From the IMG/VR virus record IMGVR_UViG_3300042988_001300, positions 1 through 46,649 of that record: a stretch of DNA of 46,649 bases. One strand, given 5' to 3'. Source of the DNA: a virus. Below are positions 2,101 to 43,907 of the stretch, in pieces. The notes beneath the pieces are model-generated. The model was not told the origin of the DNA and made no database searches. It saw only the letters and a list, made by a program, of their open reading frames with translations. Both the position numbers and the translations under genes were made by a program. Position 1 is the stretch's first letter; each line of letters begins with the position of its first letter.

Positions 2101-2505
2101 TTATGAGGGTGCCGTACGTGCAATCGCATCGACGACTGCCTGGTTCTCTACGACGTTGGACGAACCGAAGCACATCGTCATGTTATCCACAAACATGCAC
2201 TGGGTCTCGTTGAACGAATACGTTCGCATCGGGGGCGAGTACACAGTCCACACGCCACGAGCAAGCGTTGTCCTGTTCAGGCAGTCACGGTATCCCGCAG
2301 TTGAGTTCATCGAAGGATATGCTCGGTATCCTGTTGAACTTATGCGACAAAACGTTCCTGTCTCGACGGTAACGGAGCAGGCGTATACTGTGCAGTCTCC
2401 TGCAGCGTCGGTAGTTTGGAAGTCTGTCTGCTTCTCGGCCGTCAGTACAAGAACAGTTCCAAACAGCAGGCCAGCGACGATGCAGAGTATTGCGAATGTT
2501 TTCAT
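2101..2505 (-). CDS. Secreted or membrane-anchored, cysteine-rich protein with N-glycosylation sequons
   Basis: The protein has 134 residues with a typical signal or anchor segment: Lys2, then hydrophobic residues 4-22 (FAILCIVAGLLFGTVLVLT). The remaining 110 residues are predicted extracytoplasmic and hold six cysteines (38, 43, 53, 75, 103, 112) and four N-x-S/T sequons at Asn67, 77, 99 and 108. Archaeal surface proteins are N-glycosylated at this sequon. It is the only minus-strand gene among early and replication genes. It sits behind a copy of the promoter that drives the minus-strand late operon (2550-2571), so late expression is likely. It may be a host-surface protein (for example superinfection exclusion) or a virion surface protein; neither is shown. 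Confidence 0.75.
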   Translation of the reverse strand: MKTFAILCIVAGLLFGTVLVLTAEKQTDFQTTDAAGDCTVYACSVTVETGTFCRISSTGYRAYPSMNSTAGYRDCLNRTTLARGVWTVYSPPMRTYSFNETQCMFVDNMTMCFGSSNVVENQAVVDAIARTAPS

Positions 2506-2549: not shown

Positions 2550-2571
2550 TATACGCATTCATCATATATAA
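2550..2571 (-). promoter_or_regulatory. Late-type promoter, copy 1
   Basis: Read on the minus strand this begins TTATATATGATGAATGCGTA. The 22 bases are identical to 43690-43711 upstream of the late operon. The TATA box TTATATAT is centred near 2567, predicting a start near 2541 and a leader of about 36 bases before the ATG at 2505. Confidence 0.7.
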
Positions 2572-2595
2572 CCTTTCCGCATCAAGAGTACTTGC

Positions 2596-2850: not shown

Positions 2851-3057
2851 ATGACACAAGAACAACTCACAGCTCTTGAGCTCACAGAGCTTCGTAAGAT
2901 TTGTTTTAACGACGCAGCACTCGGTGCCTTCTCGGGCATGATATTCAACGACATGTCAGAGCTTGCGGACCCGAAGATGTGGACCGACGCCGACATCAGT
3001 ACACGAGTTCGTGCAGCAATTCGTATCCGACTCATGGTACGGGAGATGAGCAAATGA
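2851..3057 (+). CDS. Hypothetical protein, 68 aa, first gene of the replication block
   Basis: A short soluble, helical protein: an acidic N-terminal helix (EQLTALELTELRKICF), a central Met- and Asp-rich segment, and an Arg-rich C-terminal helix (RVRAAIRIRLMVREM). Its ATG lies at the expected leaderless start of the TATA box at 2821. The stop overlaps a 16-codon frame. Being first behind a strong promoter suggests abundant early expression. No family recognised. Confidence 0.6.
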   Translation: MTQEQLTALELTELRKICFNDAALGAFSGMIFNDMSELADPKMWTDADISTRVRAAIRIRLMVREMSK

Positions 3058-3104
3058 CCAAGAAAAGCATCTTTGAAGAAATCATAGAAGCAATCGTAGA
3101 CTAA
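3054..3104 (+). CDS. Possible micro-protein, 16 aa
   Basis: The ATG overlaps the previous stop (ATGA) and the frame runs to TAA at 3102-3104, just before a hairpin terminator. The peptide is helical (SIFEEIIEAIVD). The overlap and the terminator position favour it, but it is too short to be certain. Confidence 0.35.
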   Translation: MTKKSIFEEIIEAIVD

Positions 3105-3107
3105 GGC

Positions 3108-3136
3108 TTTCGGAACAACCGAAAATATCTTTTTCT
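3108..3136 (+). terminator. Hairpin plus T-run terminator
   Basis: TTTCGG-AACAA-CCGAAA forms a six-base-pair stem, followed by ATATCTTTTTCT. It closes the short 2851-3104 unit, and a new leader follows before 3187. Confidence 0.55.
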
Positions 3137-3186
3137 ATCATCATACTTTCATCATACTTTTACAGCAACAAGGTATCGCAGTAACA

Positions 3187-3393
3187 ATGAAAAAAACAAT
3201 CTCTATAGAGTTTGACGAACAGTCAAAAGCAATCACAGCGAGAACTAAAATCGAGTACCAACTTGAGTCCATGGTTGAGGCTCTCACGTTTGAAAACAAC
3301 GACATGCTGGACGAATCAAAAAAACTATTCAACGCAGCATGGGAATACGCTAATGCAAAGAGCATCGCCAAGAGCGGAGTGCACTACAAATGA
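3187..3393 (+). CDS. Hypothetical protein, 68 aa
   Basis: An acidic, helical protein (TISIEFDEQSKAITARTKIE, then a Leu- and Glu-rich helix ending in KSGVHYK). Two CATCATACTTT repeats and a weak TATA-like ATACTTTTA lie 30-45 bases upstream. Its stop overlaps the ATG of the next gene, a membrane protein, so the two are probably co-translated. Function unknown. Confidence 0.6.
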   Translation: MKKTISIEFDEQSKAITARTKIEYQLESMVEALTFENNDMLDESKKLFNAAWEYANAKSIAKSGVHYK

Positions 3394-3611
3394 CAGAGAC
3401 TAAATTTAGTATGAGCGACAGCAACACAATTCTTTCAACGTTGATTGGATACCTGCCCGTACAGGCCACACTTTTTGTACTCTACTATGGGAACATCCTG
3501 TTCATGCCGAAGTGGGTAGCATGGTTCCCTACAATTCTCTACGGCTCACTAATCACTGTGGTTATTACCTTTGCCGTAGTAGCAGTTTTCATCGGCGCAC
3601 TGACTAGATAA
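3390..3611 (+). CDS. Small membrane protein with two transmembrane segments
   Basis: The protein has 73 residues. After a short polar N-terminus, residues 14-36 (ILSTLIGYLPVQATLFVLYY) and 46-70 (FPTILYGSLITVVITFAVVA) are hydrophobic enough to span the membrane, separated by a short loop with MPKW. It is encoded early and far from the exit module, so an early membrane role such as exclusion or anchoring replication is as likely as a holin role. No family recognised. Confidence 0.6.
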   Translation: MTETKFSMSDSNTILSTLIGYLPVQATLFVLYYGNILFMPKWVAWFPTILYGSLITVVITFAVVAVFIGALTR

Positions 3612-3620
3612 TCATAAACA

Positions 3621-3628
3621 TTTTAAAG
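3621..3628 (+). promoter_or_regulatory. Probable TATA box
   Basis: TTTTAAAG, about 50 bases before the ATG at 3674. The start would lie near 3650, giving a short leader that carries the Shine-Dalgarno-like GAGGAAAG at 3661-3668. Confidence 0.5.
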
Positions 3629-3673
3629 GGACTTTACCAAAAATGAACATGAAAAAATTTTGAGGAAAGACAA

Positions 3674-4036
3674 ATGACACACCAACAACTAGACATAGAA
3701 ACCACCGTTAAGGCAGGCAAGACGTACAACAACATCAAGCCGAAGATTGCACTCGACCAAGACAAGTTCTGCCTCGTGCGCAAGAAGTTTGCCGTAGGAA
3801 AAGAGCGCGAAGGCGTCGGCAAGTCTGACGGTAAGGCATACAAGTATTTCTCGCACAACGTAATGCTCATCCAGCCAGACGGTAGCGAACACGAAGTAAG
3901 CTTCCTTCTCTATGAAAAAGAAAACGAAGAGTTCGATGCTGCAGGCGGACTTGATGACACCGTTCGTATCTGGCTTCGCAAGGACAAGACCGGCAAGCGC
4001 AAGAACCCGCTTTACATCACCTTCGAGCGTGTATGA
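3674..4036 (+). CDS. Hypothetical protein, 120 aa (possible nucleic-acid-binding beta protein)
   Basis: The start is supported by GAGGAAAG six bases upstream. The sequence alternates short strands and basic loops (FCLVRKKFAVGKEREGVGKS, KYFSHNVMLIQPDGSEHEVS, VRIWLRKDKTGKRKNPLYIT) and ends FERV, as a small beta-barrel might. Its position directly ahead of the ATPase, nucleases and primase would suit a single-strand-binding protein. That is a guess from context; I see no diagnostic motif. Confidence 0.6.
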   Translation: MTHQQLDIETTVKAGKTYNNIKPKIALDQDKFCLVRKKFAVGKEREGVGKSDGKAYKYFSHNVMLIQPDGSEHEVSFLLYEKENEEFDAAGGLDDTVRIWLRKDKTGKRKNPLYITFERV

Positions 4037-4037
4037 G

Positions 4038-4187
4038 ATGAGCAAGACACCATCTGATGATGTAGAGCGCCTTCGCTCTCGTCTTGCTAAGCTCGAACAG
4101 GAGGTCTTCGACCTTCGCACGTTCGTGAACAGTCACAAGCACCGACGCTTCTCGCAAGAAGTATACGCGGAGAAGAGGTCTGCTTAA
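4038..4187 (+). CDS. Small coiled-coil protein, 49 aa
   Basis: ATG at 4038, one base after the previous stop. Residues 7-32 form a heptad-patterned helix (DVERLRSRLAKLEQEVFDLR), followed by a basic His-rich tail. Probably a dimer. The GTG of the next gene follows the stop without a gap. Function unknown. Confidence 0.55.
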   Translation: MSKTPSDDVERLRSRLAKLEQEVFDLRTFVNSHKHRRFSQEVYAEKRSA

Positions 4188-4394
4188 GTGGCCACTCCGT
4201 TCAAGTCACTAGTCTATCAAACCTTTATCGAGGTGCAGGTTGACTTTGATGAGAACGGAAAGGTACTTGACACCAAGACCTTGAAGCGATGGACTACCGA
4301 GAAGGGAGCCCCTCGTCCTGTTAAGCAGAAAGAGAAACCTAAGCCCGCAACAAAGAAACTACAAACGCAGCTACAAGAAGCCGCGGAGCTTTAA
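4188..4394 (+). CDS. Hypothetical protein, 68 aa, GTG start
   Basis: Starts with GTG immediately after the TAA of the coiled-coil gene. An N-terminal beta hairpin (SLVYQTFIEVQVDFDENGKV) precedes a disordered Lys/Pro/Gln-rich tail. It sits in the replication operon directly upstream of the P-loop ATPase gene and may be an accessory factor. No family recognised. Confidence 0.55.
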   Translation: MATPFKSLVYQTFIEVQVDFDENGKVLDTKTLKRWTTEKGAPRPVKQKEKPKPATKKLQTQLQEAAEL

Positions 4395-4395
4395 T

Positions 4396-5745
4396 TTGAG
4401 CAAAGAAACACTACGCCTAAACTACGCATGCGTCAGTACCTTTAAAAGGGAACTCTATGGTAAAGTGCTGACACGCGAACACGTCGCTGGAGGCATGGTT
4501 CGCTTTGCAGAGAACGAGATAGTCTTTCCCGACAAAGAGAAAAGCGAGCGCCCGTTCTGGGGACACATCCTTGAGAAGAACGGAAGGAAGTACTTTCTTG
4601 AAACAGTAGACACCGAGAGTGGAGAGCGCATCGACATTCGTAAGGTTCTGCCGATGTTTGCAGAAGGCCTTGTGCCTTTCGCACACCGTGGAACAGTGTA
4701 CGACCTCATCACGAAACCAAAGCCAGCAACCTTAAAGCCTAACAAGCGCATGAGCTTTAAGCAACTCGTCGACCAACTGTCGTGCCTGCCTCACACGAAC
4801 CCCAAGCACGCTCGCATGCTGTGGTTTATTGTTCTCACGCAGATGATGGACAGAGCGAACTTCAGAGTAAGCTCCGTCCCGGGTTTCGGCAAGGACAGCG
4901 TGATTGATATTGTAGGAAACCTCGTCGGAGGAGCAGCAACCATAGTCCGTCCAACACCAGCAAAGCTTGAGTACCGCACCACATACAAGTTGTTGGTCGT
5001 GAACGAAATTGTCGGTCTTCCGAAAGCGGACTGGGAACTCATTGAGCAGTTCATCCTTGACGTCGCAGCATTCAAGCCGGAAGTTGAGAAACGCTCACGT
5101 GCCTTTGACAAGAGCATGGAGACGCTCAACGTAAGTGACTTTAGCTTTGGGCTGTTCTACAACGACGTAGACACGTACAGTGGAGACGAAGTAGAGTACG
5201 TCGACGACATCGCTAAAGGCGCAATCGTAGACCGCCTACCTGCTCTTCGCTTCTATGGTACGTACCAGCACGACTTCAACGAAGTGCAGACAGTGAACGT
5301 AGAGGACTTCGTGAAGGAGAACTTCGACACGTACCGCAGCCTCATCGCAACGTTTGCATACTACAAGGAAAAGCTTTTCGACCTTGAGCGCAAGTGGGAC
5401 ATGAAGATACCCTCGCGCGTTCCTGGAACGAACGTTCCATTCCCGGAACGATGGCGCATCAACTGTGAGAAGTTACTCCGAGTAGTACAGCTCTACAGTG
5501 AGAGCGAAGCAGAGTACCGAACATGGGAGAAGGTACTGTGGGACGCAATGGAAGACTACCAAGACATGCTCAAGTACCACCAAGACGTACCGCTTGTTCG
5601 CGAACGACTCTCAAAGAAGGAGTGGTTTGACGTTAAAGCGGCAGTCAAGAAAGCAACGACATTCAAACAAAAGCTTGCGGCTCTGCGCTCTCAAGGCGGA
5701 CAGCAGCCAGACTATGCGGGGTTGACACAATGGCAGAGCTCATGA
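4396..5745 (+). CDS. P-loop-like ATPase, candidate replicative helicase or loader
   Basis: The protein has 449 residues from a TTG at 4396, right after the previous stop; GGAG lies nearby upstream. The core region (residues 120-290) resembles a RecA/AAA ATPase with altered motifs. RVSSVPGFGKDSV (157-169) has the Gly-x-Gly-Lys of a Walker A but Asp instead of Ser/Thr after Lys. LLVVNEIVG (199-207) stands where Walker B would be, with Asn-Glu instead of Asp-Glu. The C-terminal 150 residues are helical. It lies upstream of two nucleases and the primase, and no other helicase is recognisable, so a DNA-unwinding or loading role is inferred. Motif deviations make activity uncertain. Confidence 0.6.
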   Translation: MSKETLRLNYACVSTFKRELYGKVLTREHVAGGMVRFAENEIVFPDKEKSERPFWGHILEKNGRKYFLETVDTESGERIDIRKVLPMFAEGLVPFAHRGTVYDLITKPKPATLKPNKRMSFKQLVDQLSCLPHTNPKHARMLWFIVLTQMMDRANFRVSSVPGFGKDSVIDIVGNLVGGAATIVRPTPAKLEYRTTYKLLVVNEIVGLPKADWELIEQFILDVAAFKPEVEKRSRAFDKSMETLNVSDFSFGLFYNDVDTYSGDEVEYVDDIAKGAIVDRLPALRFYGTYQHDFNEVQTVNVEDFVKENFDTYRSLIATFAYYKEKLFDLERKWDMKIPSRVPGTNVPFPERWRINCEKLLRVVQLYSESEAEYRTWEKVLWDAMEDYQDMLKYHQDVPLVRERLSKKEWFDVKAAVKKATTFKQKLAALRSQGGQQPDYAGLTQWQSS

Positions 5746-6494
5746 ACACACTTAACGATAAAAAGTTAAAGTTCTACCCCAAGAAACACACCTACCGATA
5801 CGGTAAGTGGGCGCTGCGCTCAGTAAGCGAGTGGCTGGGCAGCTTCAAGCCACCGTTCAAGGACTTCGACGCGAAGGCGGTAAGCAAAGGAATGTCGTAC
5901 TGGCACTTCAGAAAAACTGGAGAGAAGAAGACCGCCACCGCAATCCGCAACGAGTGGAAGGCAGTAACGGAAGAAGGCACGGCAGTACACGCACAGATTG
6001 AAGACTACATCAAGTTCGACAGCGGACCACTCAACCTGTACAAGCCAACGCTTCCTCGTGCGAAGCTTGGCGTGGCAGAGTACAACAAGTTCAAAAGTAG
6101 GTACAGCCCGAGCAGCGTACTGTGCGAGGCGCGCATCTTCTCGCTACAGCTAAAGCTTGCAGGAACGATTGACCTACTCATGCTCACCGACAAAGGAGCA
6201 GTCATTATTGACTGGAAGACTAACCGCAAGCTCCGAGGCACTGTGCCAGCACGGGAAACGGTTGACGAGGATGGTTATATAGAGATTACGTCTGTGTTCG
6301 ACCTTGACGGAGAGAATGTAAGCAAGTACACGATGCAGCTCAACACCTACGCATACATACTAGACAAGTACTACGGAATACCTATTTACGAAATCAAGCT
6401 CGTACACCTCACAGACGTTGAAGCAGTAGTGATGGACATTCCATACATGCCTTCGATGGTCGAGGAGCTGATTGAGAAGGAGAACAAACAATGA
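5730..6494 (+). CDS. PD-(D/E)XK exonuclease, RecB/Cas4-like
   Basis: The protein has 254 residues. Its motifs follow the order of the RecB-type nuclease fold: GTAVH (83-87), LAGTIDLL with Asp148, VIIDWKTN with Asp161 and Lys163, and QLNTYAYIL near 205-213 (the QxxxY motif). The four iron-sulfur cysteines of Cas4/AddB are not evident. Such phage nucleases act in recombination or end processing, often with a recombinase or helicase. It overlaps the upstream ATPase gene by 16 bases, so the two may act together. An internal ATG at 5742 is an alternative start. Confidence 0.8.
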   Translation: MAELMNTLNDKKLKFYPKKHTYRYGKWALRSVSEWLGSFKPPFKDFDAKAVSKGMSYWHFRKTGEKKTATAIRNEWKAVTEEGTAVHAQIEDYIKFDSGPLNLYKPTLPRAKLGVAEYNKFKSRYSPSSVLCEARIFSLQLKLAGTIDLLMLTDKGAVIIDWKTNRKLRGTVPARETVDEDGYIEITSVFDLDGENVSKYTMQLNTYAYILDKYYGIPIYEIKLVHLTDVEAVVMDIPYMPSMVEELIEKENKQ

Positions 6495-6622
6495 CAAAGG
6501 TTAAATATCGCGTTTACGTCGAAGGGTATGCTTCACTGGAAGAAGTAGACAACATGAGTAAAGTGGCGCGTACCACATTTCCACTCGTGGCGGAAGTCGA
6601 GGTTAGATATGCTCACGAGTAG
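6491..6622 (+). CDS. Small hypothetical protein, 43 aa
   Basis: The ATG overlaps the nuclease stop (ATGA) and the frame ends inside the start of the next gene. The peptide has a strand-helix-strand pattern (VKYRVYVEGYASLEEVDNMS, then VAEVEVRYAHE), which looks like a small folded domain. Function unknown. Confidence 0.55.
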   Translation: MTKVKYRVYVEGYASLEEVDNMSKVARTTFPLVAEVEVRYAHE

Positions 6623-6971
6623 CGCAAAAAGCAAGGGCAGGCGTCTACAGCAAGCGGTGAGAGAAAAACTACTGGCACAACCCTATGCTATGGACACAGC
6701 CAATGAAAGAGCGCTACAGCCCGGAGATGTGCGCGTTGCCATCATGGGCGAAAGTGGTCTTGACATTAAACTATCTCCTTGGGCAGAAGAGGTTGTGCCG
6801 CTCGACATCGAGTGCAAGAACGTCGAGATAGCGTCACCGTGGGCATGGATGAAACAAGCAAAAGCAAACACACGCGAGGGAAGAATGCCTGCAGTGTGCT
6901 TCACACGCAACCGAGAAAATGATATTTACGTAATGATGAGGCTCGATGATGTACTTAAATTGCTCAGATGA
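6609..6971 (+). CDS. PD-(D/E)XK endonuclease, Holliday-junction-resolvase-like
   Basis: The protein has 120 residues. SSAKSKGRRLQQAV begins the first helix, ESGLDIKLSP carries the first catalytic Asp, and VPLDIECKNVE (about residues 64-74) carries the Glu-x-Lys. A W-A-W-x-QA helix and a CFTRNR strand follow. This matches a common small tailed-phage family annotated as resolvase or RecB-like endonuclease, thought to cut branched DNA before packaging. It overlaps both neighbours by a few bases within the replication operon. Confidence 0.78.
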   Translation: MLTSSAKSKGRRLQQAVREKLLAQPYAMDTANERALQPGDVRVAIMGESGLDIKLSPWAEEVVPLDIECKNVEIASPWAWMKQAKANTREGRMPAVCFTRNRENDIYVMMRLDDVLKLLR

Positions 6972-7855
6972 AATCCCACACGTTCCTCTACTACCTAAGA
7001 GAATATGCCCGACTCTATCCAGAGGAAGACGTGATGGTGATGTACCGACCAACACCAGACTCATACTGGAACGACAGATGCCTATTCGGAAGTGAAAAAT
7101 ACAATGCCTTCAAACCATACAACCACCGCAGCATGCTCAAAAATGAAGTCGTCATCGAATTCGACCACGAAGACCCAGTCATCAACGCGAAAGAAACCGA
7201 CAAGGTCTGCAAGCGACTCAAAGACGATAACATCACCTTCGCTCGATGGCAAAGCGGAAACAAATCCCACCACGTTCACGTCCTTCTTGCAATCCCTGAA
7301 GAAATACGTGACAGAAAAACTCTCAAGAAAGCCTTCCTCGACGTCTACACCGAAGGACTCGAAGTCAAGCCAGACTACCAACTCTGCATCGACAACCACC
7401 TCATCCGAGCAGAAAATGGCCTGCACGAAAAAACGGGGAGGCACAAAACGCTTATCCGCGCCACAGAAGACTATCCAAAGAATTCGGGAGTACCTGAAGC
7501 TGTATGGAGGAGATATGGACTCCGAGTCCGAGAGTCGATTGCTCGAGCTGCTGCACGTACTACCCAAGTCATCAAAGATTCGCGTGCAGTTAAGTTCCTC
7601 CTATCCACTCAAGATTTTGGAAGTGTCGGTGATGGACGCGAGCGAGCCCTCTTCATACTCTCACAAGTACTACGTAGTGAGTACAGCCAAGACGACCTCG
7701 TGCAATTTCTCCAAGATTGGTACCGCTACAGCGGAGGGAAAAAGCTTTCAAAGCAGCAAGTCGCGCAGAAAGTCCGCTACAGCTACGGCAAGCAGTACAA
7801 CATCACGGAAAGGTACGTCGAAGAGTTCCTCCAAGAGATAGGGCATAAAATTTAA
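6968..7855 (+). CDS. Archaeo-eukaryotic-type primase (AEP superfamily)
   Basis: The protein has 295 residues. VVIEFDHED (61-69) is the metal-binding hhDhD/E motif with Asp66 and Glu68. WQSGNKSHHVHVL (94-106) is the SGxxxxxH nucleotide-binding motif. LIRAENGLHEKTGRHKTLI supplies the third conserved motif with Arg and His. The C-terminal third is helical and could be an accessory or helicase-contact domain. AEP enzymes make primers and some also polymerise DNA. Here it would start synthesis for the family A polymerase encoded at 11923. Its stop lies inside the TATA box of the RNA ligase gene, so the operon boundary is here. Confidence 0.85.
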   Translation: MKSHTFLYYLREYARLYPEEDVMVMYRPTPDSYWNDRCLFGSEKYNAFKPYNHRSMLKNEVVIEFDHEDPVINAKETDKVCKRLKDDNITFARWQSGNKSHHVHVLLAIPEEIRDRKTLKKAFLDVYTEGLEVKPDYQLCIDNHLIRAENGLHEKTGRHKTLIRATEDYPKNSGVPEAVWRRYGLRVRESIARAAARTTQVIKDSRAVKFLLSTQDFGSVGDGRERALFILSQVLRSEYSQDDLVQFLQDWYRYSGGKKLSKQQVAQKVRYSYGKQYNITERYVEEFLQEIGHKI

Positions 7856-7859
7856 ATAC
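7851..7859 (+). promoter_or_regulatory. TATA box for the RNA ligase gene
   Basis: TTTAAATAC, centred 27 bases before the ATG at 7882, giving a leaderless message. The downstream ACCAGGAAATACA closely resembles the segment after the TATA box at 9901, so the start-site region is conserved too. Confidence 0.8.
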
Positions 7860-7881
7860 TCGAAACACCAGGAAATACACA

Positions 7882-8805
7882 ATGAGTTTTAAAACTTATC
7901 CCAAGATTCACGCCATCGGAAAGGAAGAGGTAAAGGACATTTTATCTGACCCCAACCACCTTATTGTGGTTCAGGAGAAGATGGACGGAGCAAACTTCCG
8001 CTTCATGATTGACGAAGACGGCAGAGTACGTTTTGGCAGCCGTACCCAGGAACTTGAACCAACAAAGGAGCATGTTTACGCTAAGAACTTTAATCGCGCC
8101 TGTGCGTATATCAGAGAAAAAATAAACACAGTAGAAGACCTGAACACACTACGACATAAGATATTTTATGGCGAGTGCATGGTCAAGCATACCATGGATT
8201 ATGACTGGTCGACAGTTCCTCCGTTCCTCCTTTTTGATGTATACGATATTGCACATGAGTTTTTCTATGACTTTAATTTTGTTCAGCACTTTGCCGAAAC
8301 ACTCAGCATAAAAACAGTACCTCATATCATGACGGTACCTGCGTCTCAAATAGCTAAAATCGACGACGAAGAAGTTCCAACTAGCAAGTACGCCCCACGA
8401 CAGGCCGAAGGGATTGTTTTCAAGAACTACTCAGCCGGGCTGTTCGCAAAGTTCGTGCGACAGGAGTTTAAGGAAAAGAATGCAGAAGCCTTCGGCATGT
8501 CCCCGAAAGCTGCCCGTGAGCTAGGAGAAGAGCACCGCCTAGTAGCGACATACTGTACCAACGCTCGCATCGACAAGGCAGTGTTCAAGCTGCTCGATGA
8601 GGGGAACCAGTTGGAGATGTCGTTGATGAAGCACCTCCCGATGTCCGTTTACCTTGACATGTGGGAGGAGTGTTGGCGGGAGATAGTTACCGACCGGCAG
8701 CTCGGCGAGTTCTCCCCTCAAGAAGTTAAGAAAATAATTACGAATCGCTGTAAGTCAGTACTTAATCAAACGATAACAAACCAAACTATACTTTCTAAAG
8801 AATAG
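7882..8805 (+). CDS. RNA ligase, Rnl2-like
   Basis: The protein has 307 residues. Nucleotidyltransferase motifs are in order: EKMDGANF with the adenylated Lys33 (motif I), FGSRTQE (Ia-like), IFYGECMVK near 93-101 (III), EGIVFKNY near 174-181 (IV) and AKFVRQEF (V). The C-terminal 110 residues are helical, as in Rnl2 and related ligases. The enzyme joins 3'-OH and 5'-phosphate RNA ends and in phages typically repairs tRNAs cut by host defences. It has its own leaderless promoter. The virus also encodes a tRNA-Asn and a metallophosphoesterase, which may form a repair set. Confidence 0.85.
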   Translation: MSFKTYPKIHAIGKEEVKDILSDPNHLIVVQEKMDGANFRFMIDEDGRVRFGSRTQELEPTKEHVYAKNFNRACAYIREKINTVEDLNTLRHKIFYGECMVKHTMDYDWSTVPPFLLFDVYDIAHEFFYDFNFVQHFAETLSIKTVPHIMTVPASQIAKIDDEEVPTSKYAPRQAEGIVFKNYSAGLFAKFVRQEFKEKNAEAFGMSPKAARELGEEHRLVATYCTNARIDKAVFKLLDEGNQLEMSLMKHLPMSVYLDMWEECWREIVTDRQLGEFSPQEVKKIITNRCKSVLNQTITNQTILSKE

Positions 8806-8824
8806 TTTCTAGTATTCAAATTCC

Positions 8825-8852
8825 ACTTAAAAGGACCCAGTCACCCATCTAA
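8825..8852 (+). promoter_or_regulatory. Promoter with TATA box and conserved start-site block
   Basis: CTTAAAAG at 8825-8832 followed by GTCACCCATCTAA at 8840-8852. The same TTAAAAGG plus GTCACCCATCTAA, at the same spacing, occurs on the minus strand at 17917-17943. The block can pair with the Shine-Dalgarno region AGAGGTGGTGA at 8866-8876. Confidence 0.65.
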
Positions 8853-8880
8853 GGCCATCAAGCCAGAGGTGGTGAGCGCA

Positions 8881-9732
8881 ATGGGTCTTGATAAAATAGT
8901 AACCGAGGAAGCAAAGAGATTGGCCAAGACAAGAAACAGTTACGAAACCACAGTTGCGTTATACGACATCCACGCCCCGTACATTAGCGAGGCAGCAACT
9001 AAAATAGCTACCGACTACATCAGCACGACCAAGCCCAGACGTCTTGTTCTTGGCGGAGACCTAATCGATAACCCATCCATGAGTTTGTATCCGCAAGATG
9101 CCGACCACAAGATGGATACACGAGAGGAAATTGACAGTGCCGTAGCCTGGCTTGGCCGCGTAGTTGCCGGCAGCCCCGACACGGAGATTGTCGTTCTCGA
9201 CGGTAACCATGATACTGGTCGTTTCGAGCGTCTCAAGAGCGAGGAGAGCAAGGCCCTCAAGAATCTCCGCGGCATGGACTTCTTCAGTCAGCTCAAAGCC
9301 AGTTACCAGGAAGCAGGCATGCCCAACCCGCTCAGGTACGCAGGCAAGAAGTATGAGCTCGGCCCGGGCATGGTATTCGTGCATGGCGATGGTCGCATGA
9401 CCCCCGAGATTCTCGGTGGCGTCAACGGCGCTAAGCGCACGGCAGACAGTTCCGCCTTCCCTGGTAAGCACATCGTCTACGGCCACGAGCACACTATCGG
9501 TCAGGCATCCAGCAAGTGGGGAGACCGACAAGTCTACAAGGTTGCTGCGATGATGGACCTTGACGTCAAGTTCTACACGCACATGAGCCAGTACCAGAAC
9601 GGATTCCTCATTGTCAAGTACTCACCAAATGTTCGCCCGAAACCAACATACCACGTCCAGAACGTACTCATCCAAGGCAGCGTCGCGCTGATTGATGGGC
9701 AGGAGTTTCACGGAGGGAGGAAGCATCGATGA
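8881..9732 (+). CDS. Metallophosphoesterase (calcineurin-like)
   Basis: The protein has 283 residues from the ATG at 8881, chosen because GAGGTGGTG ends five bases upstream; a GTG at 8869 is weaker. Metal ligands are visible: Asp29 and His31 in LYDIHAPY, Asp60 and Asn64 in GGDLIDN, GNHD (108-111), VHGDG, and GHEH near 200-203. Relatives include SbcD/Mre11 nucleases, 2',3'-cyclic phosphodiesterases and protein phosphatases; the sequence alone does not separate them. It follows the RNA ligase but has its own promoter and a leader hairpin that can mask its ribosome site. Confidence 0.8.
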   Translation: MGLDKIVTEEAKRLAKTRNSYETTVALYDIHAPYISEAATKIATDYISTTKPRRLVLGGDLIDNPSMSLYPQDADHKMDTREEIDSAVAWLGRVVAGSPDTEIVVLDGNHDTGRFERLKSEESKALKNLRGMDFFSQLKASYQEAGMPNPLRYAGKKYELGPGMVFVHGDGRMTPEILGGVNGAKRTADSSAFPGKHIVYGHEHTIGQASSKWGDRQVYKVAAMMDLDVKFYTHMSQYQNGFLIVKYSPNVRPKPTYHVQNVLIQGSVALIDGQEFHGGRKHR

Positions 9733-9905
9733 TTTCGATTGAGCGTGCTATAGAGCGCGTCGAAGTAATTGAAAACGTCAACGCAATATTTCAAGCTGTT
9801 AAGTACTCCGGCGACTGCACCCGACAAAATACTAAAAGTTTCGCATGGGCGCTTGTTGCTATGGAGCCTCGCTTTAACGACCTTGATGATATTCGTAAAG
9901 TTTAA
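9729..9905 (+). CDS. Small hypothetical protein, 58 aa
   Basis: The ATG overlaps the phosphoesterase stop (ATGA). The helical peptide starts MISIERAIERVEVIENVNAI and ends DDIRKV. Its stop codon lies within the TATA box of the next transcription unit. No family recognised. Confidence 0.55.
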   Translation: MISIERAIERVEVIENVNAIFQAVKYSGDCTRQNTKSFAWALVAMEPRFNDLDDIRKV

Positions 9906-9927
9906 ATAACCACAATACCAGAAATAC
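9901..9927 (+). promoter_or_regulatory. TATA box and start region for the nucleotide-metabolism genes
   Basis: TTTAAATAA overlaps the preceding stop codon, and ACCAGAAATACA follows at the same distance as in the RNA ligase promoter. The predicted start is near 9928-9933, leaving a leader of about 50 bases. Confidence 0.65.
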
Positions 9928-9930
9928 AAC

Positions 9931-9961
9931 GTCCTCGGGAGTTAGCAATTCGCCCGGGGAC
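9931..9961 (+). other. Strong 5'-leader hairpin
   Basis: GTCCTCGGG at 9931-9939 pairs with CCCGGGGAC at 9953-9961: nine pairs, one of them G-U, around a 13-base loop. It would sit at or next to the 5' end of the message for the diphosphohydrolase gene and could stabilise it or regulate translation. Confidence 0.5.
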
Positions 9962-9979
9962 ACTCCTACTCACAGTAAC

Positions 9980-10333
9980 ATGGCAGCTAAAGATACAGAC
10001 GGAAAAACAGTGTACATCACGAAAGACAGCGGCAAGAGAGTTGATTTTAACTCGGGAATGCGCCGCGACACACAGGATGGAAAACCACGGTATGACCTAT
10101 GCTATGAACCACTTCTAACCGAGTGGGCTCACCTTATGGCTAGAGGAGCTGAAAAGTACGGCGAGAATAACTGGCAACTTGCGAACAGCCAAGAAGAGCT
10201 TGCGCGGTTCAAGGCCTCAGCATGGAGACACTTCATTCAATTTATGCGAGGAGACAAGGACGAGGCGCATCACGCGGCAGTTTTGTTTAACATTGCCGCC
10301 ATTATGATGCTGGAGGAAAAACTTGGCAAATAG
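9980..10333 (+). CDS. dATP/dGTP diphosphohydrolase-like protein (MazG-type fold, DUF5664 family)
   Basis: The protein has 117 residues. GKPRYDLCYEPLLTEWAHLM, the central GAEKYGENNW, ASAWRHFIQFMRGDKDEAHH, and a closing AAVLFNIAAIMML helix match the pattern of the phage dATP/dGTP pyrophosphohydrolase family. Glu/Asp and His residues on these helices bind magnesium. In phages with 2-aminoadenine DNA a member (MazZ) makes dGMP for PurZ. No PurZ-like gene is visible here, so nucleotide-pool adjustment is the safer reading. Confidence 0.7.
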   Translation: MAAKDTDGKTVYITKDSGKRVDFNSGMRRDTQDGKPRYDLCYEPLLTEWAHLMARGAEKYGENNWQLANSQEELARFKASAWRHFIQFMRGDKDEAHHAAVLFNIAAIMMLEEKLGK

Positions 10334-10811
10334 TCAAACAGACTCTAAAGAGCAGTGGCGAAAACGCTACGAGACCTATGGAAGAGATTATTACCAAAGA
10401 AACAAGGAAAAAATACTGGCTAGAGGAAGAAAAAACTATACCGCTAACGGAGAAAAGTATAGAAAATCCGGGAGAGATAGATATAACAGTCTTACTTTCT
10501 ACCCACAGGTAATCATTGAAAGATGCAAGCTCAGAGCAAGGAAACAAGGAAGACCCTTCAATATTACGAGAGACGATATAGTTATACCTGATGTTTGCCC
10601 CGTACTAAAAATTCCTTTGCAACGAAGTTATGAAGGAAAAGCCAAGGCTAACAGTCCATCAGTAGACTGCATAATCCCAGAACTAGGTTATGTACGAAAC
10701 AATATTCAAGTAATCAGCTACAAGGCAAATGTAATGAAAAACAACGCTTCTGAAGATGAGCTAATAAAGTTTGCTAACTGGATTTACGCCTTTTACGGAG
10801 AGAAAAAATGA
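10323..10811 (+). CDS. HNH / endonuclease VII-like nuclease
   Basis: The protein has 162 residues from a TTG at 10323 supported by GGAGGA at 10311; it overlaps the upstream gene by 11 bases. The N-terminal 60 residues are Arg/Lys/Tyr-rich, like DNA-binding arms. The C-terminal half has CPVLKIPL, then SPSVDCIIPELGYVRNNIQV and ISYKANVMKNNAS, the signature of small phage HNH/EndoVII-like proteins. Such enzymes may be free-standing homing endonucleases or resolvases. The AT-rich, Lys/Asn-rich stretch contrasts with flanking genes and suggests acquisition by transfer. Confidence 0.7.
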   Translation: MANSQTDSKEQWRKRYETYGRDYYQRNKEKILARGRKNYTANGEKYRKSGRDRYNSLTFYPQVIIERCKLRARKQGRPFNITRDDIVIPDVCPVLKIPLQRSYEGKAKANSPSVDCIIPELGYVRNNIQVISYKANVMKNNASEDELIKFANWIYAFYGEKK

Positions 10812-11041
10812 CATGCCCAACGTGTGACGAAGATTGCTCCATATCAGACCCATGTGAGTGCGACTGCCACGAGACCGAGGAGAGGTCTGCTGTGGTGTTT
10901 GAGAACCAGAGCATAGAGTACGAAGCAGACGTACACATGCTCGACAGTAACCTAATTCACAAAACACGAATCGTGGTCACAGGACGCACAATAGCAGAGG
11001 CGCACGAACAGTTCGAGAAAGTATACACGAGGGTTAAATGA
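10808..11041 (+). CDS. Cysteine-rich N-terminus protein, 77 aa
   Basis: The ATG overlaps the nuclease stop. The first 21 residues contain six cysteines and one histidine (CPTCDEDC, then CECDCH), enough for one or two metal sites. The remaining residues form a strand-rich segment (SAVVFENQSIEYEADVHML, TRIVVTGRTIAEAHEQF). Possibly a zinc-ribbon adaptor. The stop overlaps the deoxyribonucleotidase start. Confidence 0.6.
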   Translation: MTCPTCDEDCSISDPCECDCHETEERSAVVFENQSIEYEADVHMLDSNLIHKTRIVVTGRTIAEAHEQFEKVYTRVK

Positions 11042-14165: not shown

Positions 14166-14174
14166 TTCAAAAGA

Positions 14175-14183
14175 TTTAAATAC
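14175..14183 (+). promoter_or_regulatory. TATA box of the small-gene run
   Basis: TTTAAATAC, centred about 27 bases before the ATG at 14206. A second TATA-like TATATAAG at 14196-14203 is too close to serve the same start. Confidence 0.7.
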
Positions 14184-14205
14184 ATGAGATGCCTGTATAT
14201 AAGGT

Positions 14206-17916: not shown

Positions 17917-17943
17917 TTAGATGGGTGACCGTACCCTTTTAAA
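17917..17943 (-). promoter_or_regulatory. Promoter with TATA box and conserved start-site block, minus strand
   Basis: TTTAAAAG (17943 down to 17936) followed by GTCACCCATCTAA (17929 down to 17917), ten bases before the ATG at 17907. The same pair of elements with equal spacing is found at 8825-8852. Confidence 0.6.
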
Positions 17944-36888: not shown

Positions 36889-37824
36889 TTAAGCCGTCAC
36901 GTTCGCGACAATGCGAACGATGTGCTTTGCGCGATATGCAACTGCCTTGTACTCGCTTGCCGCGACCACGTCAGTGTGGCGCGAGAGCGCTTGGTACTGG
37001 CTTCGGACATACGGGCGGCGCTTCCATACAACGCGGAAGCTGTCGGGTCCGAGAACCCAGCAGTCCTGGTCGCTGGTACCGTCGCTGTCGAAGTCCGCTG
37101 CGCCCTGGCGACCGATGTCGCTGGTGAGGATGCGGATGCCGAGGTAGCGGCCGATTTCGCCGTTGAGGATGGTCTCGCGGCCACCGTAGATGCTTGCGTC
37201 GACGAACTTGCTGGACTTCTCAAGCGCGATAAGGTGGTCCGGGTGAAGGACCGCGATAAGGCCAGAGAGCTCTGCGTCGGGTGCGTTCTTACGGAAGACA
37301 CGGCGCGCGTCTGCGAAGAAGTCTTCGCTGAACTGGGAGCCGGTCTTGTCAACGAGCTGACCCGAGTTGGTACCCGCGTTAACGGCAGCTTCAAGAGCGA
37401 CACGGATGTCCTTCTCAAGCTTGAGCGCGAGGCCGTAACCGAGGCGCTGCGTTGCCTCTTCCATAACGTTAACCATCGCACGCGCCATCATCTCCTCAGT
37501 AACCTGAACGGCTGCCGAGATGGTCGAGGGCGTTGCGGTGACTTCGCTCGTGGTCATTGCAGTGATGCTGACCGAGCTACCTTCGTTGACTGCAGCCGCT
37601 TCGAGGCTGATTTGGTCCCAGACCGGAAGGTGGAGGATGTCGCCACCTCGGCCGAGGAGCTCAGTGTTCTGAGCGAAAGGAAGCGCACCAAGTACGAGGC
37701 GGCTCTCCATGAACTGGAGAACGCGCGCTGCCCAGACTTCCGGAATGATGTCATCAACCGTAGTGGTCGACGTCATGTTTGCGTCGGCCGCTTGGTCCAC
37801 ATAATAAAACTGTTCGTTTGCCAT
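36889..37824 (-). CDS. Major capsid protein, HK97 fold
   Basis: The protein has 311 residues from the ATG at 37824, preceded by GGAG nine bases upstream; an earlier in-frame ATG five codons up is less likely. The order IIPEVWAARVLQFMESRLVL (N-arm helix), DILHLPVWDQISLEAAAVNE (E-loop), AVQVTEEMMARAMVNVMEEA and RLGYGLALKLEKDIRVALEA (spine helix), then VLHPDHLIALEKSSKFVDAS and GRYLGIRILTSDI in the P/A domains, is that of HK97-like capsid proteins of marine viruses. It follows protease and scaffold genes. Confidence 0.88.
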   Translation of the reverse strand: MANEQFYYVDQAADANMTSTTTVDDIIPEVWAARVLQFMESRLVLGALPFAQNTELLGRGGDILHLPVWDQISLEAAAVNEGSSVSITAMTTSEVTATPSTISAAVQVTEEMMARAMVNVMEEATQRLGYGLALKLEKDIRVALEAAVNAGTNSGQLVDKTGSQFSEDFFADARRVFRKNAPDAELSGLIAVLHPDHLIALEKSSKFVDASIYGGRETILNGEIGRYLGIRILTSDIGRQGAADFDSDGTSDQDCWVLGPDSFRVVWKRRPYVRSQYQALSRHTDVVAASEYKAVAYRAKHIVRIVANVTA

Positions 37825-37843
37825 TGTTGTTTTCTCCACGCCT

Positions 37844-38615: not shown

Positions 38616-39263
38616 TTACGCAGCTCGAACGTTAGTTATGCGGTTCATGGGCTGCTTTGGTTTGTTCGTGAATACGAACCCCTTAAGCACGCCGCCTCCC
38701 ATGAACGTGGTCTTCTTTCCCTGGATAAGCGCCTGGTCTACTGGAAAGAGCGCCTCAAGCGATAGTGCGCGGAACTTATCCACTACCCACTCGTACCCGG
38801 TCTTCATCTTGGCGGTTATCCAAAGGCGACCGTTCTCGACACGGGCAGTTACCCATTCGGTAACCGACTCGGTCATATTGCGCTCTTTTGTTTCTCGGAA
38901 CTTCTTGTGCTCGTCAGTGTATCCGCCGATGCCTTGAGTGTTGATTTGGTGAGCAAATCCTTCAAGGGCCTTGGTAGAGAACGCCTGGTTGTGCATGTCC
39001 GGCTCCGGACTTGCGAGTATAGCGTCTACGATAACGCCTTTCTCTCCTGCCTGGTCTACGCGTATTGTCTTTATGTCAAACGAGTAAAGCTTTGTCGTGC
39101 AGTTAGTGAAATCTGATTCTTGTGCAACCGCGATACCTTCTCCAACGTACTTCATGCGTGAGAGAGTGGCGAGAGCCGCGACCTTAGCCGCGGTGCTCTC
39201 ATCGTGACCCGAGATGCGGGCCTGGTTGTATACTCCACGGTGGAATGTGCGAATGGTATTCAT
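38616..39263 (-). CDS. Prohead maturation protease
   Basis: The protein has 215 residues. The core follows the herpes/HK97 protease order: the strand YSFDIKTIRVDQ, GVIVDAILASPEPDMHNQAF with the typical D/N-x-HN-x-x-F turn, GYTDEHKKF with catalytic His119, and FRALSLEALFPV with Ser168 as nucleophile candidate. It lies between portal and capsid genes and its start overlaps the portal stop (ATGA). It cleaves scaffold and capsid arms during maturation. Confidence 0.8.
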   Translation of the reverse strand: MNTIRTFHRGVYNQARISGHDESTAAKVAALATLSRMKYVGEGIAVAQESDFTNCTTKLYSFDIKTIRVDQAGEKGVIVDAILASPEPDMHNQAFSTKALEGFAHQINTQGIGGYTDEHKKFRETKERNMTESVTEWVTARVENGRLWITAKMKTGYEWVVDKFRALSLEALFPVDQALIQGKKTTFMGGGVLKGFVFTNKPKQPMNRITNVRAA

Positions 39264-40699
39264 GGTGAAACTCCGCGAGCGAGTAGCTCTCGTGCGCGTT
39301 TGTTTAGCTCAGGGTCGATTACTTGACCCGACGTGAGGCGCTCAAAGGCCTCCTCAACTTCATCAACAGACTGAGTTACGAGTTGGTTACTTCTTGTAGT
39401 GCCGGAGCTGCCGGTACCTACGCGCTTGTTTGATGCCCCTTCGCTCTTTCCCTTTCGTGATGGGGCCGAACCGCTATTCGTTAGCTGGTTCTTGTCCATC
39501 TTTGTCGGGGACTCGAAGAAGTCAGGATTGAAGAAGTCGTCAGGAAGCGGTACTCCCTGCTCCTCCATCCATTCGATAAGCTTCTCCGGCTTGGCCCCCA
39601 TAGCCTTAAGCTGAACCGCCATGTCTATGACGTCCTTTGCGCTCTTGTCATCGATGGGGTTGAAGTAGAATTCAACACTCTTGAAACCAAGTTTCGGGAG
39701 GAGCTCGTGGTTGATAGTGTCTTCGACGTATTTCTGAAGTGAGCGGATGTGCGTGTTGAACGCCTTGTAGGTCTGCTGCTCTCCGCTTGCTCGTCCCGAG
39801 TTGTCGGGGATTCCTGCCATGATGGGAGGAACCTGCATCAACGTCAGTATGCGAAGGTCGATTGCCGTCATGAGTTCAAGGAAGCGCGGGCCGTCCTCGA
39901 AATTCATCAAAGCGTCATGCTCTACCCCGTCGCCAAACCATACGTAAGGCTTATCGGGGTCCTTTATGGTGAGTCGGTACTCGGCCAGGCTACGCTTGAC
40001 GTCCTCGTCGATAGTACCCTTGGGGAAGTGGACCTTGTCTCGGAACAGGTTCTTCTTGAACATGCGCCAGATGTGGTCCTTGAGCTTGATTTTGATACCA
40101 ACTAGCGAGTCGATTGGCTTGATTGGAATCTCGCCCCAGAGGCTTGTAGTGAAGCGGTCGAAGCGGAAGTGTACTACCTCATCAGGAGTGAAGGATACGT
40201 CAACGCCGCCCGCGCTTTTCTGTACAAACGCTGTCGGTATACCGTGACCGTCCGGGTCCACGATTTCCATTTCGGTAGTCTCAAGAACGTACAACTCAGT
40301 TGAGCCGTCGTCTTGCTTGGCTATTTCTATGAACGCGTTACCGAGCGGAACTCCATTGAAGAACAAGTGCCGCAGGAGCGAGTCGAAGTTAACGTCCTTG
40401 AAAAGGTTTTTCGCTCGTTGAAGCTCCTGCTTGTTCTTTCCGTCGAGGTAAAAACCCCGTCCGGTAGCTGCGTCGGTCTTGATTACTGTTGAAGCATAGA
40501 CCGTCTCATCATTACGGACGACATATACCACGCTCGAAAGACGGTATTGTGATGGTGTGATGCCTACCGTTGTCGCGTTACGTCGCCCAATTGCGGACTG
40601 AGCCGCGTCGATAGTCCGACCTCTGCCGGCCTGGTCAACTGCGAGTGTGTCATTCCACTGGTCGTAGAAAGTTGACACGCTTTGTTTCTGTTTAGCCAT
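39260..40699 (-). CDS. Portal protein
   Basis: The protein has 479 residues. LSSVVYVVRNDETVYASTVI near residue 55, FNGVPLGNAFIEIAK, FTPDEVVHFRFDRFTTSLWG (the 'evvHfr' strand of portals), a wing region, then LRILTLMQVPPIMAGIPDNS and YVEDTINHELLPKLGF match phage portal proteins of the HK97/SPP1 class. The C-terminal 100 residues are disordered, Ser/Lys-rich, with a final helix. It lies between terminase and protease, the normal order. Confidence 0.85.
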   Translation of the reverse strand: MAKQKQSVSTFYDQWNDTLAVDQAGRGRTIDAAQSAIGRRNATTVGITPSQYRLSSVVYVVRNDETVYASTVIKTDAATGRGFYLDGKNKQELQRAKNLFKDVNFDSLLRHLFFNGVPLGNAFIEIAKQDDGSTELYVLETTEMEIVDPDGHGIPTAFVQKSAGGVDVSFTPDEVVHFRFDRFTTSLWGEIPIKPIDSLVGIKIKLKDHIWRMFKKNLFRDKVHFPKGTIDEDVKRSLAEYRLTIKDPDKPYVWFGDGVEHDALMNFEDGPRFLELMTAIDLRILTLMQVPPIMAGIPDNSGRASGEQQTYKAFNTHIRSLQKYVEDTINHELLPKLGFKSVEFYFNPIDDKSAKDVIDMAVQLKAMGAKPEKLIEWMEEQGVPLPDDFFNPDFFESPTKMDKNQLTNSGSAPSRKGKSEGASNKRVGTGSSGTTRSNQLVTQSVDEVEEAFERLTSGQVIDPELNKRARELLARGVSP

Positions 40700-40748
40700 G
40701 AAATGTGACGAGAAGCGCTACGAACTCTTCGGATAGGTGACTAGTAGC

Positions 40749-41021
40749 TTATAAAGACTTGATATTTTCGTTGCGCGGAGCAGAGATGCCGTATCTCTTT
40801 CCGTGCTTTTTGCATCCTTCGCGGCTCCCGTAGTAGAGCCACGATACCTTGAACTCTTGTATCTTGTCCAGATTGTCAAGAACCCAACGTGGTTGGGATA
40901 GAACGAGGTCAAGACACGCGGCATATCCATCCTCTTCGTCCTCGATGTTATCGAAGACGATTTTCCCGTACTGGTTGACCTGGTACGTATACTGCTTTCC
41001 CATTCCAGGTCTAACTGTCAT
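40749..41021 (-). CDS. Hypothetical protein, 90 aa
   Basis: Starts at the ATG 41021, which overlaps the end of the upstream small gene by 11 bases. Contains VNQYGKIVFDNIEDEEDGYA, CLDLVLSQPRWVLDNLDKIQ and a basic tail. SWLYYGSREGCKKHGKRYG holds Cys and His but no clear zinc motif. Position between terminase and portal; function unknown. A GTG at 41072 gives a longer frame but would overlap the upstream gene almost entirely. Confidence 0.6.
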   Translation of the reverse strand: MTVRPGMGKQYTYQVNQYGKIVFDNIEDEEDGYAACLDLVLSQPRWVLDNLDKIQEFKVSWLYYGSREGCKKHGKRYGISAPRNENIKSL

Positions 41022-41209: not shown

Positions 41210-42811
41210 CTACCACTCAAACGTCACGAAACGGACGCGGTTGGTTTCCTCTTGAAGGAAGAAGTACAAGCTCATTACGAAACCGTCAATCAGGTCGTCG
41301 GTTCCTCCTGGAGCGTGTTCGATTATCGTGTGCACCTTTCCTTGACTGAACTGCATGCCGAGCATTTCCTTCTTCAGCTCGTCATCGACATAGGAGCGAA
41401 TCTCTCCGCGGTTCAAGGCAGCGCGGAACGCTCCGTACTTCTTTACCTTGTCAGTGGCGAACTTCATAGGCTCGACATTCCACCCTCGGTCGCGCATAGC
41501 GTTGATGCGGTACCATCCCGCAGGACAGTCGTCCGGTACGATGCGCTGCACATTGAATTTCTTAAGAAGGTCTGCTATGTCTTCGAGGAGAGAACCGTCC
41601 CCGTTGATGGGGTAGCGGTGGTGATACAAGCGGGTCATCATACCGGTCTTCTCATCCATCTCTGAAATGGTGACGGTTGTGTGAGAGAGCTTCTCCCCGC
41701 CGAAGTCGATGCCCATGTCGCACTTCTTTGCGTACGCGTCGAACTTTCCGTAGCCGTCAGAGAATATCCTCTTGACTGCTTCAGGTTCAAAATACGCTGT
41801 TTCTCCCTTCACGAACTGACAGTAGTAGTTGAGTAGAGCCTCGTTGTACCGACCCGCCTTGCGCAGTTCCTCGATATCTTCTTGTATAGACTGATACTGT
41901 GAGGGATTCTCAATCTTGATTGACTCGCACGTAAACATTACACGGTCGATGTGAGGATTGTCCAAGGTACCGTCCACGTTACAGAGTTCGTAGAAGAACC
42001 CGCGAGCAAACCATGGAGTGGACGAGTAGAAGCGGATTGCCGCGTTTGCCTTCGCGGTCGGAGCAAGGTGCTTGTAGTGGGTGTCGTCGGAGAAGTTGTC
42101 TGCCATACCACACTCGTCTTCGAGAATCAGACAACCAGTCTGGCCAAGTACCTTCCCTGTTGGAGGGTACGACTTGAGTACAGGACCGAGTACTGCTCCT
42201 GCGAGGATGTACTGCCCGTGCACTTCCGCTTTCTGTCTCTTGAAGGTGATGGAGGATGCGCTGTTTCCTGTGCCTTCATCAAGCAAGCTACTGAAGAATC
42301 CCTTGAACTTCTCGCTACGCTTACCAAATACAGGGTTTCCTGCAGTGTCAAGGTAGGTTCGCTCCATGAAGTCGTCTCCTAAAAGCATCAAGTCTTTGAC
42401 CTTAAGTAGGAGCTCTGTTGCCTGTTTATCGGTAGCCGATACCACCAGTACGGATGTTCTGTGGTCTGACTTACCGGGAAGCTTGTTGAACACGCACGCC
42501 CACAAGGATATTGCTGCAACGAAGGTCGATTTACCTTGCTGTCGTCCAGTGAAGAGTAGGTATTGACGGATTAGCCGGTTGCGCTTCTCAGGGTCTTTTT
42601 CAAGAAGTGCCGCTCGCGCCCGCGTCCAGGCATACACTTGCCACGCGTACAGCCGCAGTCCCAGCATCTTCTCACAGAAGTAAGGAAAGTTCTCGCTCGC
42701 CTCGGCAATCATTCCCTTGCCTGGAGTCCCTGCACGCTCCTTGTCCATTGCCGCGATGAACGCCTCATCAACCACCATCTCTTTCAGAGGACCCATTAGC
42801 ACATTACTCAT
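41210..42811 (-). CDS. Terminase large subunit
   Basis: The protein has 533 residues. ATPase domain: LLFTGRQQGKSTFVA (86-100) with Lys94 as Walker A, and CLILEDECGM (227-236) as Walker B with the catalytic Glu. A coupling-type SST motif appears in IRFYSSTPW (260-268). Nuclease domain: DMGIDFGG (365-372), IVPDDCPAG, and GTDDLIDGF near the C-terminus supply the three acidic sites of the RNase H-like nuclease. It packages DNA through the portal. A small subunit is not recognisable; the gene two places upstream is a candidate by position. Confidence 0.92.
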   Translation of the reverse strand: MSNVLMGPLKEMVVDEAFIAAMDKERAGTPGKGMIAEASENFPYFCEKMLGLRLYAWQVYAWTRARAALLEKDPEKRNRLIRQYLLFTGRQQGKSTFVAAISLWACVFNKLPGKSDHRTSVLVVSATDKQATELLLKVKDLMLLGDDFMERTYLDTAGNPVFGKRSEKFKGFFSSLLDEGTGNSASSITFKRQKAEVHGQYILAGAVLGPVLKSYPPTGKVLGQTGCLILEDECGMADNFSDDTHYKHLAPTAKANAAIRFYSSTPWFARGFFYELCNVDGTLDNPHIDRVMFTCESIKIENPSQYQSIQEDIEELRKAGRYNEALLNYYCQFVKGETAYFEPEAVKRIFSDGYGKFDAYAKKCDMGIDFGGEKLSHTTVTISEMDEKTGMMTRLYHHRYPINGDGSLLEDIADLLKKFNVQRIVPDDCPAGWYRINAMRDRGWNVEPMKFATDKVKKYGAFRAALNRGEIRSYVDDELKKEMLGMQFSQGKVHTIIEHAPGGTDDLIDGFVMSLYFFLQEETNRVRFVTFEW

Positions 42812-43276: not shown

Positions 43277-43299
43277 ATTATCAGAACTTTAACCTAAAA

Positions 43300-43371
43300 C
43301 GGACCGAGAAGGTATCGAACCTCCGACTTCCACCTTAACAGGGTGGCGCTCTACCCCTGAGCTATCGGCCC
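43300..43371 (-). tRNA. tRNA-Asn (anticodon GTT)
   Basis: Reads GGGCCGA for the 5' acceptor strand, pairing with TCGGTCC, and a discriminator G. D-stem GCTC/GAGC with loop AGGGGTA; anticodon stem CCACC/GGTGG with loop CTGTTAA; five-base variable loop; T-stem GGAGG/CCTTC with loop TTCGATA. All stems pair, with one or two G-U pairs. CCA is not encoded, and a run of four T follows, a usual archaeal stop signal. It lies one base after the stop codon of the upstream gene and is therefore cut out of the late message. It may supply Asn decoding or replace a cleaved host tRNA. Confidence 0.95.
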
Positions 43372-43372
43372 A

Positions 43373-43681
43373 CTATACGCGAGACTTAATCGGGTTAGCA
43401 ACACACCAAGAAAACTTGGCCTCAGCAAGCCCAAGCGACTGGTAAAACCAACCATACCTACCAAATTCTTCATTACCAGCCAAGATTTCACGGGTAGGGG
43501 TCTCAGCCAGGACCTCATTAGACCAGGAGTGTGGGTCAGATTTTCGACGAACTCGGTGAACCTCATGTCCAACTACCTCCCCACCAGAAATAACGGCGTA
43601 TAGCGCGTTTTTCTCATCACGCTTAGAAAGCCGGTAAGATAACTTGTTCTTATTGAAAGACAAAGGGACAGTAATTAGCAT
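43373..43681 (-). CDS. First late-operon gene, leaderless, 102 aa, unknown
   Basis: Start set to the ATG at 43681 because the TATA box centre (43707) is 26 bases upstream. A longer frame from 43705 would lie inside the promoter. It begins MLITVPLSFNKNKLSYRLSK and continues DEKNALYAVISGGEVVGHEV, with basic VHRVRRKSD and a Trp/Phe-rich middle (YGWFYQSLGLAEAKFSWCV). No motif recognised. As the first product of the late promoter it could be a late regulator or abundant virion protein. Its stop is followed after one base by tRNA-Asn. Confidence 0.65.
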   Translation of the reverse strand: MLITVPLSFNKNKLSYRLSKRDEKNALYAVISGGEVVGHEVHRVRRKSDPHSWSNEVLAETPTREILAGNEEFGRYGWFYQSLGLAEAKFSWCVANPIKSRV

Positions 43682-43689
43682 AATACCTA

Positions 43690-43711
43690 TATACGCATTC
43701 ATCATATATAA
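43690..43711 (-). promoter_or_regulatory. Late promoter, copy 2 (late operon)
   Basis: Minus-strand sequence starting TTATATATGATGAATGCGTA, identical over 22 bases to 2550-2571. TTATATAT is centred 26 bases before the ATG at 43681, so the message would be leaderless. It stands at the head of the whole minus-strand late block. Confidence 0.75.
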
Positions 43712-43907
43712 GCTTTGTGAATGATATAGCAGATTGTAGCTAAATAACGAAGAATAGAAGACTTTTTAGCCATATTTCTAAGACTTAAGATAAATTTCTA
43801 GAACTTAAGTCCTCCTCTATCCTCCCTGCTTATCCCACCTATGTAAATTCTTGAAGTTGTATCACTTGTTAGTGACGAATGGGGATATCATAATTACCAT
43901 ATATGAC

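Follow-up and report, generated by a model that had tools for sequence, protein, structure and literature searches.

The question raised by this locus is why one 22-nt sequence, TTATATATGATGAATGCGTATA, stands at two distant places of a viral genome. It occurs exactly, on the minus strand, at 2550-2571 and 43690-43711. This identity had been noted in a preliminary description, which read it as a late-type promoter used twice, for the structural operon and for a lone surface protein. The window analysed is the whole IMG/VR virus record IMGVR_UViG_3300042988_001300, with a length of 46,649 nt.

Genome organisation

The virus codes for a terminase, a portal protein, an HK97-type capsid protein and a family A DNA polymerase. 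Its strand map comprises two plus-strand arcs (44219 across the joined ends to 2034, and 2851-17034) and two minus-strand stretches, namely the lone ORF 2101-2505 and an arc from 43681 down to 17065. The 22-mer is found in both divergent regions and heads each of the two minus-strand stretches. The genes identified in the minus-strand arc are:

41210..42811, minus strand: terminase large subunit (PHROG matches to 1.8e-18)
39260..40699, minus strand: portal protein (Pfam PF04860, 4.6e-17)
36889..37839, minus strand: HK97-type major capsid protein (PHROG 267, 1.4e-22)

The same arc contains a 918-aa ORF (33018-35774) with three 126-nt repeats at 33555-33680, 33765-33890 and 35169-35294, which have 72-77% identity to the reference copy; its product is perhaps a fibre-like protein. 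The plus strand carries the family A DNA polymerase (11914-13800), an RNA ligase (7882-8805) and an endonuclease VII-like protein (10323-10811), all in a virus whose promoters appear to be of archaeal type. The ends of the record, 1-94 and 46556-46649, overlap by 94 nt with 3 differences. Such an overlap points to a complete genome, either circular or terminally redundant, with variation between strains; IMG/VR nevertheless lists the record as linear.

The repeated block

The shared block extends beyond the 22-mer to 27 nt with one mismatch, and reads AAAG[G/C] followed by TTATATATGATGAATGCGTATA. The sequence flanking it is unrelated between the copies on both sides.

2550..2576, minus strand: copy 1, with BRE-like AAAGG, TATA box TTATATAT and shared downstream segment GATGAATGCGTATA
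43690..43716, minus strand: copy 2, in which AAAGC replaces AAAGG

No third copy of the 22-mer is present in the window with up to 3 mismatches allowed, and the next-best site differs at 7 of the 22 positions. At the same tolerance, none of 100 dinucleotide shuffles of the window gave a match. Besides the contig-end overlap, the 22-mer is the only exact repeat of at least 18 nt in the window, far above chance. Between the two AT-rich divergent regions, the longest shared string measures 22 nt, compared with 14 nt or less in 150 Markov simulations.

A separate palindrome, ACATATGT, occurs six times in the window against 0.5 expected. Five sites are intergenic (2604, 41193, 43916, 44021 and 44039), of which four fall within one or other of the divergent regions and the fifth shortly precedes the ORF that starts at 41178. 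The palindrome might serve a viral regulator as operator, or belong to an origin.

Core-promoter anatomy

TATA-like hexamers cluster 29-32 nt before predicted starts across the window. At these offsets 11 were counted against about 0.4 expected from hexamer density, an expectation that is our own arithmetic, with overlapping hexamers counted twice. An archaeal TATA box combined with leaderless or nearly leaderless mRNAs explains this spacing. Copy 2 matches the virus's other promoters, as the first base of TTATATAT lies 30 nt before ATG 43681. Judged by eye, a purine-rich BRE precedes TTATATAT in both copies, as GGAAAGG in copy 1 and ACAAAGC in copy 2. The identical stretch takes in the BRE and the TATA box and ends at about -9, counted from ATG 43681; upstream of the BRE the copies have nothing in common. 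In its sequence, the 27-nt block thus looks like an archaeal core promoter.

A bacterial sigma-70 reading, for which copy 1 offers TATAAT, was rejected, since TATATA takes its place in copy 2, a -35 element is lacking and the spacing is archaeal genome-wide. A search of the virus for TFB gave no match at E<=1, so host factors are presumably used.

Genes behind the two copies

Copy 2 heads the structural arc, where the order is a 102-aa ORF, a tRNA-Asn, two small ORFs and the terminase. The ORF call had placed the first start at ATG 43705, for a product of 110 aa. As TTATATAT lies 30 nt before ATG 43681, the called start falls inside the promoter, and 43681 is the compatible start.

43373..43681, minus strand: first ORF behind copy 2, 102 aa, predicted leaderless from the TATA spacing
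43299..43372, minus strand: tRNA-Asn (GTT), adjoining the stop of ORF 43373-43681 in the same predicted transcript

The 102-aa ORF has a modest coding score (0.11) and no Pfam match. Since the tRNA abuts its stop within the predicted terminase transcript, tRNA processing would cut the mRNA.

The unit behind copy 1 is a single gene, beside which lies a divergent promoter:

2101..2505, minus strand: lone 134-aa ORF, supported by its in-frame coding score
2821..2839, plus strand: divergent promoter TTTAAATATACGAAAGACC, 30 nt before ATG 2851

The distance from the start of the TATA box to the ORF is 66 nt in copy 1 versus 30 nt in copy 2, and the mRNA predicted for copy 1 would have about 36-40 nt of leader ahead of ATG 2505. 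The product has an N-terminal hydrophobic helix, six further cysteines after the helix, and four N-glycosylation sequons (at least four occur in 2% of shuffles). No family match was found in Pfam or PHROG, and the predicted structure is of low confidence (pLDDT 41) except for the N-terminal helix. From these sequence features the protein is probably secreted or anchored, and its description as a surface protein is plausible.

The statement that only these two units lie behind the element holds to the extent that the minus-strand genes comprise only 2101-2505 and 17065-43681. It does not follow that copy 2 drives the whole arc.

A probable second promoter class

Comparison of all upstream regions reveals another type of site, which consists of a TTTAAA-like box, a near-fixed gap and ACC, often within GTCACC or GACACC. 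Seven matches occur in the window, all 31-56 nt before predicted starts, against a null mean of 1.7 and maximum of 6 (n=30). Five lie on the minus strand in the structural arc, before the ORFs starting at 40699 (portal), 30185, 29499, 20245 and 17907, and two precede the plus-strand genes at 7882 and 8869.

40736..40755, minus strand: second-class site TTTATAAGCTACTAGTCACC, 56 nt before the portal ORF
17924..17943, minus strand: second-class site TTTAAAAGGGTACGGTCACC, before ORF 17907
30221, 29530 and 20284 (first positions), minus strand: further second-class sites
7851 and 8827 (first positions), plus strand: second-class sites

ACC follows at an offset of 15-17 in 5 of the 6 TTTAAA sites that lie 20-50 nt before a start, compared with 1 of 22 other sites (one-sided Fisher about 3.5e-4 by our own arithmetic); the motif was discovered and tested on the same sequence, which makes these second-class statistics optimistic. 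In the latter group the one site with ACC, at 9901, likewise falls mostly in intergenic sequence. ACC is not enriched after TATA-like hexamers in the small archaeal loci compared, a result of little weight as these loci are mostly coding. The stretches 8827-8852 (plus) and 17917-17942 (minus) are alike over 26 nt at 85%.

The 22-mer has no ACC at the second-class position. It is promoter-like, confined to two places on the minus strand and distinct from the virus's other promoters, which upholds the preliminary description in this respect. The virus seems to have at least two promoter classes, of which the 22-mer pair is the smaller. The element stands at the head of the structural arc, but the arc also contains at least five promoter-like sites of the other class, and transcription of the portal gene and those after it probably also begins separately, in addition to any read-through that comes from 43681. 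The classes might be sorted just downstream of the TATA box, by ACC at a fixed offset for most units on both strands and by GATGAATGCGTATA for two, with a different factor for each and switching set in the TATA-to-start interval rather than upstream; this idea is tentative and somewhat improbable.

Comparison with known archaeal viruses

HF2 (Haloferacalesvirus): The class II intergenic repeats of HF2 are 29 bp long and occur in two near-identical copies in the late morphogenesis arm only. They act as promoters in Haloferax volcanii without other HF2 genes, and one copy drives a 35-kb late transcript (PMC8707807). In the HF2 late arm, taken as a control, no exact direct repeat is longer than the class II pair, whose copies agree over 25 nt beginning with the TATA box. 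That arm, too, opens with small genes and a tRNA gene, with the terminase behind them.

The block described here is likewise a near-identical pair, of 27 nt, and its identity runs for 22 nt from the TATA box toward the start, as against 25 nt in HF2. In both viruses one copy lies at a strand switch and heads the morphogenesis arm, followed by small genes, a tRNA gene and the terminase, and in both there is a second, commoner promoter class. The sequences themselves are unrelated: the HF2 block TATATAAACCCTTTACCATTAATAG and the 22-mer have just an AT-rich box in common. The second copy lies within the late arm in HF2; in the present virus it stands before a lone gene that is not part of the structural arc. 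The HF2 repeats are also experimentally proven and conserved in relatives, whereas the present block is a predicted promoter. By this analogy, the design is the same as that of HF2 class II, in different letters.

SIRV1 and SIRV2: In these viruses a GTC motif follows the TATA box of promoters, and there is also an early regulatory sequence that promoters share (PMC5569661, PMC11065993). The likeness lies in a BRE-TATA core joined to a virus-specific motif that is common to promoters of one virus. However, most promoters of the SIRV viruses, or nearly all of the early ones, bear these motifs, whereas the 22-mer is limited to two, and the TTTAAA-then-ACC class resembles the SIRV case more closely.

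Interpretation of the repeated block

The block is most likely a duplicated archaeal core promoter that heads both minus-strand units and is read by host TBP, TFB and RNA polymerase. These would use the BRE, the TATA box and the initiation region to about -9 directly. On this reading the repeat is genuine but fairly ordinary, as it seems to reuse a promoter of a type for which proof exists in a salt-loving archaeal virus. Copy 2 would give a leaderless mRNA from about 43681 that opens the virion-gene arc and carries the 102-aa ORF, the tRNA-Asn and the terminase region. Copy 1 would give an mRNA with the leader of about 36-40 nt for the lone, probably secreted protein. Both copies may fire together late in infection, the late timing being an assumption. 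The 14 nt shared downstream of the TATA box could tune the class through promoter melting, start-site choice or a bound factor. This verdict draws on the anatomy of the block and the HF2 precedent; the unequal distances to the two ORFs and the modest coding score behind copy 2 are counted against it.

The preliminary description argued that identity beyond about 8 bases implies a virus-coded late activator, whose binding site the block would hold, the TATA box alone being too weak. The identity does exceed the needs of TATA and BRE and is limited to two units, and a candidate winged-helix protein is encoded at 195-563 (PF0610-like, with an E of 4e-4 that does not pass the cut-off). In archaea, activators as a rule contact DNA upstream of the BRE, and repressors sit on the core promoter or below it (PMC5512572). 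Nothing common is present upstream of the BRE here, and the HF2 class II pair is active with no other viral gene (PMC8707807), so the argument from length fails and such an activator is unlikely. The excess identity lies where archaeal repressors bind, which would fit the shared downstream segment as an operator through which a virus-coded repressor silences both units early in infection; among viruses, SvtR is one example, with a structural gene as its target (PMC5569661). Yet the candidate segment GATGAATGCG contains no clear palindrome or tandem repeat and the best palindromic sites of the window, ACATATGT, are located elsewhere, which leaves a repressor quite unlikely.

It is very unlikely that the repeat simply arose by duplication in the recent past, or marks where recombination occurs at the borders of a 5.5-kb module (43690 across the contig join to 2571), and was not kept for promoter function. 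The copies are direct repeats around a block of small plus-strand genes, and a 17-mer, CATATATGTACATATGT, is also common to both divergent regions. This 17-mer, however, lies 18 nt from the block at copy 1 and about 190 nt from it at copy 2, and no tyrosine integrase match was found at E<=1. The identity also begins at the BRE and stops at about -9, limits of a promoter to which a block duplicated recently would not be confined.

Search for relatives and host

No relatives carrying the element were found in IMG/VR, the phage collection or the sampled archaeal genomes. Peptide-pattern scans of IMG/VR with the terminase, capsid, PolA, portal, RNA ligase and secreted protein, which detect close relatives only, likewise gave none. 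The exact 22-mer has no match in IMG/VR. An 18-mer of it has one, inside an ORF of an unrelated contig, which is taken as chance. This match aside, no near copy is present in the fetched loci, where the best sites have 4 mismatches; one such site was checked and lies inside an ORF.

Comparison of the terminase with archaeal phyla gave matches of 20-26% only, the best in the phylum of a MAG labelled Thaumarchaeota. A search for the host through the tRNA gave no match to an exact 28-nt stretch of it and weak matches to the whole tRNA.

Implications

If the reading as a duplicated core promoter is right, the likely start of the first gene of the structural arc is corrected, and the lone secreted protein becomes a candidate for co-expression with the virion genes. 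Its possible roles would include virion decoration, exit, and the exclusion of other viruses. An archaeal tailed virus would then have the HF2 design with no detectable sequence relationship to HF2 in the element. The common design would be a two-copy promoter that is identical from the TATA box toward the start, with one copy heading the virion genes.
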